Shown here one piece after another: positions 2,953 through 43,694 of a DNA stretch of 48,793 nucleotides (its first letter is position 1; the number at the start of each line of letters is the position of its first letter). The DNA is from a bacterium (GTDB lineage Bacteria > Hinthialibacterota > Hinthialibacteria > Hinthialibacterales > Hinthialibacteraceae). Position numbers and translations under genes: made by a program. The notes under the pieces are model-generated. The model was not told the origin of the DNA and did no database searches. It was given only the letters and a program-made list of their open reading frames with translations. The stretch lies in the NCBI GenBank assembly GCA_016125385.1, contig WGLV01000001.1, positions 1 to 48,793 of the forward strand. The letters are read 5' to 3'.

Positions 2953-3087
2953 GGTAAGCCTCGATCTTCCGGACGCGCCTCACGGCATGAAGCGCAGGAA
3001 CGGCGATCGGAGAAAAGGCGACTTGGGTACGGCGAACGGTCCAGGTCGCGGAGCCTTCTCCTCGGTCGGTCTCCAGAACAGGAATGT

Positions 3088-3253
3088 GGAAAAGCAGGTC
3101 TTCTGGCTCCCGGGCGTCGTGGCCTACTCCCTCGCCTTCTCACCCTCGCGGGCAATGGCTGATGAGGTTTCGTTCCCGGTTACAGCGGCGGGACCGCGCC
3201 GGATTCTCACCGGCTTCCCTTCGCGCGGGGTATGGCCGCGCGATCGCCTTTCC
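3088..3253 (-). promoter_or_regulatory. Cobalamin (B12) riboswitch
   Basis: On the minus strand the conserved core is clear: AGCCGGTGAGAATCCGG, then GCGGTCCCGCCGCTGTAACC (the B12 box, about 3176-3189), and near the 3' end AGCCAGAAGACCTGC (3094-3108). Closing stem P1 forms between GGAAAGGC (3246-3253) and GCTTTTCC (3088-3095), 8 bp with one G-U pair. These match the known cobalamin riboswitch consensus. The next gene downstream is the prepilin starting at 2952, 135 nt away. A short hairpin lies between aptamer and gene, but no clear terminator with T-tract was seen, so the expression platform may act on translation or through Rho. Confidence 0.93.
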
Positions 3254-3259
3254 TGTTTC

Positions 3260-3289
3260 ATACTATGGCTGCTCGCGGGAGAATGTCAA
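3260..3289 (-). promoter_or_regulatory. Sigma-70-type promoter of the riboswitch transcript
   Basis: On the minus strand a perfect -35 TTGACA (3284-3289) is separated by 18 nt from TAGTAT (3260-3265; 4 of 6 matches to TATAAT). The predicted transcription start is about 3253, the first base of riboswitch stem P1, so promoter and aptamer support each other. Confidence 0.7.
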
Positions 3290-40499: not shown

Positions 40500-43058
40500 C
40501 TAGCCGAGAAGCTGCAGGAATCCCTGACTTTGGAAATTCGCTTGCGCCAGGACTGAAACGCCGGCCTGGAGCAGAACCTGATTCAATGTGAAATTCGTTG
40601 TTTCCGAAGCGATGTCCGCGTCGCGGATACGCGATTCGGAAGCGGTCAGATTTTCAGACGCCACGCTCAAGTTTGAGACGGTGGCTTCAAGACGGTTGGT
40701 TGCCGCGCCGAGAATGGATCGAGTGCGGTTCACCTGGCTGAGCGCTTCATCGACGATGTTCAGCGCATTGTTAGCGCCGGTTAGCGTCGTAATGTTGATA
40801 TCAGCCACCGAACGGCCCGAGCCGCGGCCGAAGCCGAGGTTATCGGAACGCAGATCGCCGATGGAGAAGGCGATGGACTGACCCGATTCGGAACCGATCT
40901 GGAAGTTAAGGCCGCGGTTAACCGTCGAAAGCAGGACGGTGAAACCGGTGTCGGAGCCGGAAAAGTTGCTGGTGACGTCGATGGTTGAATCGAAGTCCAC
41001 CGTGACGAACTTAGCCGGTTCGGCGTTTGCGCTCTTGCTGAAGAAGACCACGTCCTGATCGCCGGCCTGGAAGGTAACGGCGGAACCACCGTTCAACTGA
41101 CCGGTATACAAGTCGCGCTGATTCACGAAGGTATCGGTTCCGGCGGTGAGTCCGCTTCCGACGCGGAAGGTAACCTGCGGCGTCGGGATTCCCTGAACCG
41201 TGGAGGTTGGGCCTGTGAGCGTGACCACGTCGCCCGATTCAGCGCGAACCGCCTGTCCGCCTTCAATACGGAAAGTCGCCGCTTCGGCGAACCCTTCCTG
41301 CTTGAGTAGAGCCTTGTCCTGAAGCGTGGAGTTCGAAGTGCGCGCGCCACCCGCCGCATTATTGAAGGTCAGGGTGAATTTGGTCCCCGAATCAGTGTGG
41401 CCGTAGTCGTCGATCAACTGCAGTGAACCCGACGTGGTGAATGTGAAGACGGCGTCTTCAAAGCGCGTCTGCGTACCGTCCGAAGTAGAACCGGCGGTGT
41501 AATCACGCGTACGGAAATTCAACTCGGCGACCAGACCGGAGATCGAGTTGAAGGAGAAGTCCGCCAGGCTGGCGTCATACAGATTGGCGGCGGAGTCGGT
41601 TGACTGGAACGTGAACGTTCCCTGGAATGTTGTGCCGTCGGTGTTGGTTCCCGTCAGCGTAATGGTGTCGCCTCCACGCAGGGTGGTGCCGCCGGTATAG
41701 ATGCCGCTGACGAAAGAACCGTTCAACACGACGGTGTTATTATTCGCGCCGGTTGAAAGAGACGTTGTCCGGCTGATGATGGTGCCGTTTCCGTCACGGA
41801 AAGCGATCGTGCTTTCCAGTTTACGCTGTTGAGCCTTTTGAACGTCTTCAACCGAGATGCTGAATTCGCCGTCGGTAAAGGTCGAACCGGTGATAGAAGT
41901 GACTGAGTTGCCGATGCGGCCCTTTCCCGTGAATACCGAGTCAGCGCCGATCTCACCGGAGCGCGTCACGCCGTTTGAACTGGTAACGATTTGGCCGTTA
42001 CGAATCAAGGTGACGTTAATGCTCGCCTGGTTGAAAGTATTTGAACCATTGGCGAAAAGGATTCTGCCCACGTTGGCGCCTGATGTGCCCGCGGAGGCGG
42101 TGGTCGCGAATTTAGATGGAACGCTGGAGGCGTTACCGAACAGCGCCGCTTCCGAGTTATCGATCGAGAGGTTGATGGTGGAGACCAGCCCGCTGAAGGT
42201 CAGTTCAGTACCCGTGCTGAGCACGGTGGAAACCGAACCGTTAAACTGAGTCACGCCATCGGCGAGAACACCACTAAAAACGAAAATATCGCCGCGCTGC
42301 AGCGAAACGCCATTGAAATACGCTTGGCTGCCGCCGGCGGAAGGAACGAGATCATTGGTCGCGGTACTGACGCCGGAGCCTTTGACGCCGGCTCGGCTGA
42401 CCGAGAAGAAAGCCAGGCTGACTGCTTGATCCTGCTGGTCAACAATGCCCGAGCTGAGAATCTGGCGGTCGCCGGCGGGGTCTCCAGCGACGATTTCCTT
42501 GAACCCGTCCTTAATCTGACGAATGTTCAGGAAGGATGTGCCATTGCCCAAGTTGCTGGCGACTTGCGAGGAGTCGATGTTGACGCCGACTTTCTGGATG
42601 CCGTTTTTCAAATCGGATTTGATCGAGAAGTCGCCGTTGAGCAGGAAGTTGCTTCCAAAGAGCGTGGTATTGGCGATTCGAGTGATTTCGTCAATGTTCT
42701 GGAAAACTTCGTCCTGCAGGGCCTGGCGAGCGCCAAAGTCGTTCACGCCGGTGTTCGCCGCCTGAATCGACAATTCGCGGATGCGGCTCAGACGATTGGT
42801 GGTTTCGTCGAGCGCGCCTTCCGCGACGCTGATAACGTTGATGCCGTCCTGGGCGTTCGCGGCGGCTGCGGTAAGGCCCTGGCTCTGGGTGCGGAGCCGG
42901 TTGGCCACCGTCAAACCGGCGGCGTCGTCACCCGCCCGGTTAATGCGAAGACCGGAAGAAAGCCGTTCAATGGAGCGTTGAAGGTTCAGGCCGGTTTTAT
43001 TTACGTTGCGCTGAGCGGTCAGCGCGGATATGTTCGTCGCAATACGATTGATACTCAT
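40500..43058 (-). CDS. fliC: Flagellin with very large central domain
   Basis: The 852-residue protein has canonical flagellin ends. The N-terminal D0/D1 region (1-165) includes MSINRIATNISALTAQRNVN, IERLSSGLRINRAGDDAAGL and AEGALDETTNRLSRIRELSI. The C-terminal region (about 770-852) includes LEATVSNLSVASENLTASES, RIRDADIASETTNFT and a final LAQANFQSQGFLQLLG. Between them lie about 600 residues, rich in Thr, Ser, Gly and Asn, that would form surface domains D2 and beyond. Typical flagellins are 270-550 residues. ATG 43058 follows AAGGAGG; a frame from 43148 is rejected. It is transcribed from a sigma-28 promoter far upstream (43695-43721). Confidence 0.95.
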   Translation of the reverse strand: MSINRIATNISALTAQRNVNKTGLNLQRSIERLSSGLRINRAGDDAAGLTVANRLRTQSQGLTAAAANAQDGINVISVAEGALDETTNRLSRIRELSIQAANTGVNDFGARQALQDEVFQNIDEITRIANTTLFGSNFLLNGDFSIKSDLKNGIQKVGVNIDSSQVASNLGNGTSFLNIRQIKDGFKEIVAGDPAGDRQILSSGIVDQQDQAVSLAFFSVSRAGVKGSGVSTATNDLVPSAGGSQAYFNGVSLQRGDIFVFSGVLADGVTQFNGSVSTVLSTGTELTFSGLVSTINLSIDNSEAALFGNASSVPSKFATTASAGTSGANVGRILFANGSNTFNQASINVTLIRNGQIVTSSNGVTRSGEIGADSVFTGKGRIGNSVTSITGSTFTDGEFSISVEDVQKAQQRKLESTIAFRDGNGTIISRTTSLSTGANNNTVVLNGSFVSGIYTGGTTLRGGDTITLTGTNTDGTTFQGTFTFQSTDSAANLYDASLADFSFNSISGLVAELNFRTRDYTAGSTSDGTQTRFEDAVFTFTTSGSLQLIDDYGHTDSGTKFTLTFNNAAGGARTSNSTLQDKALLKQEGFAEAATFRIEGGQAVRAESGDVVTLTGPTSTVQGIPTPQVTFRVGSGLTAGTDTFVNQRDLYTGQLNGGSAVTFQAGDQDVVFFSKSANAEPAKFVTVDFDSTIDVTSNFSGSDTGFTVLLSTVNRGLNFQIGSESGQSIAFSIGDLRSDNLGFGRGSGRSVADINITTLTGANNALNIVDEALSQVNRTRSILGAATNRLEATVSNLSVASENLTASESRIRDADIASETTNFTLNQVLLQAGVSVLAQANFQSQGFLQLLG

Positions 43059-43082
43059 CTGGTTTCCTCCTTGAGGCTTGAG

Positions 43083-43117
43083 TGTCCAGCATCCCGTGCT
43101 GGACAGTGCTCGCACGG
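43083..43117 (-). promoter_or_regulatory. Two mutually exclusive hairpins before the flagellin Shine-Dalgarno
   Basis: One hairpin pairs 43083-43091 with 43097-43105 (TGTCCAGCA/TGCTGGACA, 9 bp, 5-nt loop). The other pairs 43093-43099 with 43111-43117 (CCCGTGC/GCACGGG, 7 bp). They share 43097-43099 and the loop of the first, so only one can form. The RBS-proximal hairpin ends about 13 nt before AAGGAGG. This could be a translational switch. Confidence 0.6.
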
Positions 43118-43275
43118 GTCCTGTAACGCCCGAATCCGGAGGTATCAATCGGTTTAATCTCTCTACGACCGCATGCAGGGAGACTCCACCGAGGTTCCGG
43201 AGTGGACGCTTGCCTGATCTGTATTGGAGGAAGGGAAGTGAATGGAAAGGTAAGGCCGACGCCAGATGGCGCCGT

Positions 43276-43344
43276 GGTTAAGTCGTCCTGTGCAGGTAAG
43301 GTTTCCGAGGCCTAGATCGAGCAAACGGACGAAGTCATTCAACC
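43276..43344 (-). repeat. Flagellin-leader structured element, proximal copy
   Basis: It contains the 49-bp repeat at 43299-43347, 46/49 identical to 43524-43572. On the minus strand GGTTGA (43339-43344) pairs with TTAACC (43276-43281), including one G-U, and TCGTCC (43327-43332) pairs with GGACGA (43283-43288). The conserved core includes CTCGATCTAGGCCTCGG. In this frame the core reads FVRLLDLGLGN and a TTG at 43342 with AGGAG upstream could start a 59-residue leader ORF, so a peptide role is an alternative. Confidence 0.7.
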
Positions 43345-43495
43345 CTTCTCCTGACTACCTGATTTTTTTCAACACCTCCTTATCGAAAATTTACAAAATC
43401 TCGTGTTTTTTTCATTAAACCTTCTAAATTGTCTGGCCGATACTTAATAGCGTCTTACGATTGAACCAAACTGTAACGCAATGTAGAATTTATTT

Positions 43496-43570
43496 GGGTT
43501 AAGTTACATTCGTCTTTGCGCTTAGGTTTCCGAGGCCTAGATCGAGCAGACGGACGAAGTGATTTAACCC
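43496..43570 (-). repeat. Flagellin-leader structured element, distal copy
   Basis: It contains the second copy of the repeat (43524-43572). On the minus strand GGGTTAA (43564-43570) pairs with TTAACCC (43496-43502) and TTCGTC (43553-43558) pairs with GACGAA (43509-43514). The 3' arms lie outside the conserved block and differ in sequence and spacing from the proximal copy, yet still pair. A T-rich plus-strand run (minus AAAAAAAA) lies 5' of it. Confidence 0.7.
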
Positions 43571-43694
43571 TTTTTTTTGCCTGTTTCCGGTCAAATCCTT
43601 CGGTAAATCCGCTCTTTCATCCTCTCTGGTTCAATTGTTTTTCTTCGACCCGGGCGAGGTGGTCATTGCGTATTTTTCGCCCTTGTCGTCTTAG

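Follow-up and report, generated by a model that had tools for sequence, protein, structure and literature searches.

Loop-loop antisense RNAs of the CopA/CopT and RNAI/RNAII kind control plasmid copy number, and the hag flagellin leader of Bacillus subtilis is under post-transcriptional control by FliW-CsrA. Control of flagellin by sigma28-dependent small RNAs (sRNAs) has only recently been shown, in Escherichia coli. There, the sigma28-dependent sRNAs MotR, FliX and UhpU are derived from UTRs, MotR and FliX pair with fliC, mostly within the coding sequence, and flagellin is raised or lowered by these sigma28-dependent sRNAs (PMC10578931). In Campylobacter jejuni, CJnc180 is encoded in cis and antagonises CJnc190, a trans-acting sRNA that targets the ribosome-binding site of ptmG (PMC8687705), and the flagellar-hierarchy sRNAs FlmE and FlmR (CJnc230 and CJnc170), one of them FliA-dependent, tune filament length, with flgM and Cj1387c as targets of FlmE (PMC11187230). 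We describe here a flagellin locus from an unrelated and essentially uncultured lineage with what looks like an independent solution. It lies in a window of 48,793 nt (the whole stretch of DNA that was analysed), and the two copies of a repeat found there are probably an antisense-type sRNA and its target in the flagellin leader.

A flagellin-leader repeat and its distribution

A 49-nt repeat is present twice between the flagellin coding sequence and its sigma28-type promoter (Table 1), in copies that are 46/49 identical (94%) and 225 nt apart from start to start. An earlier note, made from the letters alone, had drawn attention to this pair; its coordinates, the degree of identity and the position of the copies between promoter and flagellin start were all reproduced, and the outer and inner stems that it had drawn were recovered in computed folds. 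As the promoter is upstream of both copies, the flagellin leader, of about 630 nt, contains them both. A genome-wide search found the repeat pattern nowhere else in this genome, and an Rfam scan of the repeat region at gathering and permissive thresholds returned no family, riboswitch classes included, in keeping with the view of the earlier note that the core fits no known riboswitch class. Elsewhere in the window, Rfam places a cobalamin riboswitch (3076-3266, minus strand; 109.6 bits). Transcript starts after the strong sigma28-type promoters of the class often read TGACGAYAA or similar, repeat-less promoters included (e.g. window ~43691-43680, minus strand; L091; L093).

Table 1. Features of the flagellin locus, in window coordinates
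Feature	Position	Strand	Remark
Flagellin coding sequence	40500..43058	-	852 aa
Flagellin ribosome-binding site CTCAAGGAGGA	43065..43075	-	
CsrA-type site, hairpin with GGA in the loop (CCAGCA-CGGGA-TGCTGG region)	43083..43106	-	upstream of the flagellin Shine-Dalgarno sequence (SD)
TTCCTCC, anti-Shine-Dalgarno	43226..43232	-	3' of target; possible pairing partners are 43373-43381 and the flagellin SD
Proximal copy, putative target in the flagellin 5' leader	43299..43347	-	core 43300-43314
AAGGAGGTG, Shine-Dalgarno-like	43373..43381	-	5' of target; without a well-placed start codon; found in all six target-bearing leaders
Sigma28-type promoter of the predicted sRNA, TAAACCTT-N12-GCCGATAC	43416..43443	+	shuffle p<0.0005
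Predicted sRNA, ~130 nt	43449..43578	+	5' end inferred from promoter
Long intrinsic-terminator hairpin and U8	43496..43578	+	U8 at 43571-43578; apical hairpin AGGUUUCCGAGGCCU
Distal copy, apical loop and 3' arm of the predicted sRNA hairpin	43524..43572	+	
Sigma28-type promoter of flagellin, TCAAGTTT-N11-GCCGACAA	43695..43721	-	

Upstream regions of 59 flagellin-like genes were taken from 14 genomes of the class. The 15-nt core AAGGCCTCGGAAACC (TAGG... in the present genome) occurs in six of these leaders, always in flagellin sense; the other core-bearing leaders belong to five genomes of four other genera of the order. The covariance-model search that the earlier note had proposed found homologous elements upstream of flagellin genes in five other genomes, with E-values of 3.6e-15 or better for the flagellin-leader copies. 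There are two such copies each in the present genome, G001, G004 and G005, and one each in G007 and G008. The model (R1) also detects six strong copies outside flagellin leaders, two each on G005:C101, G006:C16 and G008:C170, which brings the total to 16 instances in seven genomes, with an invariant core of 13-15 nt (G006 and G008, which hardly differ at the sRNA locus, were counted as one). The element is absent, by covariance-model search, from G002 and G003, which belong to the same family as the present genome, and G007, a fragmented assembly of 1270 contigs, yielded the target and no sRNA. A scan of the genomes of 84,980 species recovered the pattern in three related MAGs deposited as Candidatus Omnitrophota, together with 11 scattered single matches, about the number expected by chance; viral contigs held nothing beyond short chance-level matches to the pattern. 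Two core matches were treated as chance, one inside a glycerate kinase ORF (G010) and a lone one with three mismatches in a distant genome (G036). A AAAGGCCTCGGAAACCTTT hairpin upstream of glutamine synthetase in a deltaproteobacterial MAG (L137, 3487-3542, minus strand; 22.7 bits) is probably a chance match. In a tree of N-terminal flagellin sequences, the four target-bearing flagellins of the family cluster (support 89/92), and those of G007 and G008 form a separate group with no firm placement.

Two kinds of copy and their predicted pairing

The copies are of two types, distal (own_1, G001_1, G004_1, G005f_1, G005n_1, G005n_2, G006s_1 and G008s_1; n=8) and proximal (own_2, G001_2, G004_2, G005f_2, G007f, G008f, G006s_2 and G008s_2; n=8), "own" denoting the present genome. 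The earlier note had not noticed that the distal copy in the window folds better on the plus strand (-34 against -21 kcal/mol on the minus strand) and has a T8 tract there, nor that it is accompanied by an antisense sigma28-type promoter. Each of the eight distal-type copies is immediately preceded, in flagellin sense, by an A tract, which corresponds to a U tract 3' of the repeat on the opposite strand. In the predicted sRNA of the window, the promoter is followed by about 80 nt, a G-U-rich hairpin and U8. This promoter is the weakest of the set, with a spacing of 12, one nucleotide above consensus, and the hairpin was not reported by a general terminator scan, probably owing to its interrupted stem and the short loop criterion. 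An antisense sigma28-type promoter accompanies all but one of the eight distal-type copies (seven predicted sRNA genes, distributed over six genomes, of which G006 and G008 are near-identical), the end of its -10 element being 68-87 nt before the core (GGTTTCC); the seven distances are 81, 87, 80, 83, 68, 83 and 83 nt (shuffle p<=0.0005 each, under a scoring matrix that was hand-set after the first sites had been seen). It is absent at G005f_1 and at all eight proximal-type copies (p>0.17). The seven RNAs predicted from these promoters have lengths of 112-136 nt and terminate in a long hairpin followed by U6-U9. In G005, the leader copy is without promoter and two trans copies have good ones. 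The latter (L127, G005:C101) stand one behind the other and each have an antisense promoter of their own. An integrase fragment adjoins them and a sigma28-type promoter in sense orientation precedes them; they may be the remains of a former flagellin leader.

Of the eight distal-type copies, seven have their better fold on the sRNA strand and one folds equally well on both, with a mean difference of 8 kcal/mol. RNAalifold, applied to six aligned sRNA-strand hairpins, gives 25 pairs, seven of which are changed on both sides, against a mean of 2.9 in shuffled alignments (0/500 shuffles reach 7); 94.6% of the alignment cells are paired, a share that falls to 31-59% when the partner strand is slid. 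The proposal of the earlier note that RNA structure is under selection was right, the covariation being found on the plus-strand hairpin. Non-Watson-Crick cells comprise 31 G-U and one A-C, an excess of G-U that points to the plus strand, since the same pairs would be mismatches on the flagellin strand; this count leans somewhat to the strand on which the structure was predicted, and consensus folds computed separately for each strand agree with it (-26.0 for the sRNA strand against -15.6 for the other). Hfq is encoded in 12 of the 14 genomes of the class, and the predicted sRNAs end in U-tract terminators. The distal copy is probably the terminator hairpin of a predicted sigma28-dependent sRNA on the plus strand, and this sRNA is presumably expressed.

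What the proximal-type copies have in common with the sRNA gene is only the core and the arm on its 5' side (28-30/33 identical in five flagellin pairs); the 3' arm is not shared (7-13/25 identical). The similarity between the copies ends where the predicted pairing ends; the shared part is the one predicted to pair with the sRNA hairpin, at its apical loop and 3' arm. The predicted sRNA-target duplexes comprise 57-65 bp for the flagellin targets, with an extra target hairpin looped out in G007 and G008, and the best duplex partner is in each case the sRNA of the same genome (-111.0 kcal/mol in the present genome, -103.8 in G001, -103.7 in G004, -98.4 in G005 and -99.4 in G008); the G007 target fits the sRNA of the sister species. 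As sRNA and target are on different contigs in G005 and G008, the match is not simply due to local duplication. At 25 variable columns, cognate partners fit at 116/125 positions, the best of all 120 assignments (mean 85.8). By duplex energies and by this assignment test, the complementarity of the sRNA to flagellin mRNA is above chance. Promoter, terminator, strand, pairing and conservation of the sRNA/target system are all supported in silico.

Possible modes of control and rival readings

The target is flanked by AAGGAGGT and TCCTCC in all six target-bearing leaders, and a comparable close pair of these motifs is essentially absent from the other 53 flagellin-type upstream regions. When the segment between these motifs is folded alone, GGAGG/CCUCC closes it in five of the six leaders, the helix of the present genome standing at +2.8 kcal/mol. 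TTCCTCC is also complementary to the flagellin SD (CTCAAGGAGGAA), and in a folding model in which the target is made unavailable, the TTCCTCC-SD pairing increases from 0.01 to 0.70 in the present leader; the same model shows no such rise in G001, G004 and G005, and a value of 0.86 in both states in G007 and G008. The thermodynamic switch model gives a consistent answer for the closing helix only and not for SD masking, and since masking shifts in the present leader alone, it lends weak support to the mechanism and direction of a switch. The placement of the target between the conserved AAGGAGGUG and UUCCUCC suggests control by leader refolding, with repression as the likelier direction. A hairpin with an invariant loop CATGCGGTCG (window 43166-43175, minus strand; at about -130) is found in the four target-bearing leaders of the same family, and the loop has an exact match in no other flagellin leader fetched.

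The sRNA presumably acts on flagellin, and the following scheme can be proposed. A sigma28-dependent sRNA would be made from the plus strand inside the flagellin leader region, end at its own terminator hairpin, and pair with the second copy of the same sequence, which lies nearer to the coding sequence in the flagellin mRNA leader and has the orientation of a target. First contact would probably involve the 9-nt loop of the target (CCUCGGAAA), which is open, and the apical stem-loop of the sRNA (UUUCCGAGG), which is weak and rich in G-U; from there, pairing would extend into the 3' arm of the sRNA hairpin, to a length of at most about 60 bp. The likely consequence is a refolding of the leader domain closed by AAGGAGGUG and UUCCUCC, so that UUCCUCC may mask the flagellin SD; cleavage by RNase III may be an additional or alternative route. 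As sigma28 would drive both RNAs, flagellin would come under a feed-back or feed-forward control that sets in when the flagellar sigma factor becomes free.

In the sister genus (G006, G008), the sRNA is trans-encoded beside a second sigma28-driven RNA, in which a copy of the target is preceded by a consensus sigma28 promoter (TCAAGATT-N11-GCCGATAA) and followed by an intrinsic terminator. This second RNA is predicted to be ~137 nt long, encodes no evident protein and is predicted to pair with the local sRNA at -84 kcal/mol; in the simplest reading it is likely a decoy. One may tentatively imagine a three-RNA sigma28 circuit, in which the leader region both encodes (in antisense) and receives the sRNA, the SD/anti-SD switch is flipped by the sRNA, and a decoy buffers the system in relatives; were this the case, the flagellin gene would carry its own small-RNA thermostat. 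The flagellin leader might instead be a sponge, the abundant flagellin mRNA soaking up an sRNA whose real targets are elsewhere. A target that lies ~240-290 nt ahead of the start codon, well away from the SD, would suit a sponge, as would the second RNA of G006 and G008, but this is unlikely given that the covariance-model search found no other strong target copy in the genomes of the class and that the target is embedded in the conserved AAGGAGGU/TCCTCC leader domain.

The earlier note had considered a tandem element on the flagellin strand that would bind a ligand, as riboswitches do, or a protein, a reading for which the invariant core, the paired arms and the leader location would speak. 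We now regard this as very improbable: the distal copy probably belongs to an opposite-strand sRNA, as indicated by the strand on which the distal-type copies fold, the G-U asymmetry, and the antisense promoters and terminators; the proximal copies do not share the 3' arm, and Rfam offers no match. This reading, like that of a leader peptide, fails because the two copies are of different kinds. A single flagellin-strand aptamer for both copies (P1/P2/core hairpin), whose alignment shows cognate arm pairing above chance, was rejected on account of the other-strand folding of the distal-type copies. Integron attC sites, prompted by the GTTAAAT...ACTTAAC ends, were also rejected; in attC sites the ends come in the opposite order.

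Slightly less credence still is due to the idea that the repeat copies are CsrA-binding hairpins, with the GGA of the 9-nt loop CCUCGGAAA of the proximal copy as binding site. CsrA is encoded in 13 of the 14 genomes of the class, and FliW adjoins it in the present one (C68:35763 and 36280), but in most leaders of the class, the present one among them, the canonical CsrA-type hairpin is at another place, beside the flagellin SD, and a GGA site would leave the antisense promoter, the U tract and the 60-bp complementarity unexplained. The hairpin GGCA-N-GGA-TGCC precedes the start by about 50 nt in most flagellin genes of the class (L037-L092), with a loop one nucleotide longer in the target-bearing flagellins of the family. 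Its presence in most leaders and the adjacency of FliW and CsrA indicate that FliW and CsrA probably control flagellin here as well, as they do in B. subtilis. The leader peptide FVRLLDLGLGN can be practically dismissed: its frame is open in both window copies and the 59-residue frame from 43342 does exist as a mechanical TTG ORF, but in G004, G006, G007 and G008 the GLGN frame is closed by a stop immediately ahead of the core, each of the three frames is interrupted in many members of the set of 16, and the linker that precedes the core measures 6, 8 or 9 nt, which changes the frame.

The predicted sRNA/target pair among known systems

As an antisense-type sRNA with a flagellin-leader target, the predicted pair resembles CopA/CopT and RNAI/RNAII in its complementary hairpins, its YUNR-like loop (CUCG in CCUCGGAAA) and its arm pairing, and differs from them in that it concerns a chromosomal flagellin leader and that the sRNA is trans-encoded in relatives. 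With B. subtilis hag it has in common a flagellin leader that would be post-transcriptionally controlled, and a CsrA-type hairpin and FliW are present here too, whereas the repeat is a separate element, predicted to pair with RNA. The transcript running antisense across the sRNA gene recalls C. jejuni CJnc190/CJnc180; here this transcript is the flagellin mRNA, which, unlike in that system, would double as the target. A copy of the target in a flagellin leader, as found here, has not been described for FlmE/FlmR (PMC11187230). We found no description, in the open-licence full-text literature, of a flagellin leader that holds, in antisense, the gene of an sRNA targeting that same flagellin. The predicted sRNA gene sits inside the region that makes the leader of its target, and in relatives it has been relocated and yet still matches that target; such a natural series of sRNA-target pairs lends itself to the study of co-evolution, and it comes with a testable flagellin switch. 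In this bacterium, the filament gene thus seems to be subject to an RNA control of its own, timed with the flagellum. By prediction, the sRNA is of the same kind as MotR and FliX of E. coli, with a sigma28-type promoter and complementarity to flagellin mRNA, and it differs from these and from UhpU in having its own promoter, in being antisense within the leader region and in pairing over ~60 bp with a leader site. The kind, sigma28-dependent sRNAs acting on flagellin, is therefore known from E. coli, and the nested arrangement appears to be new.
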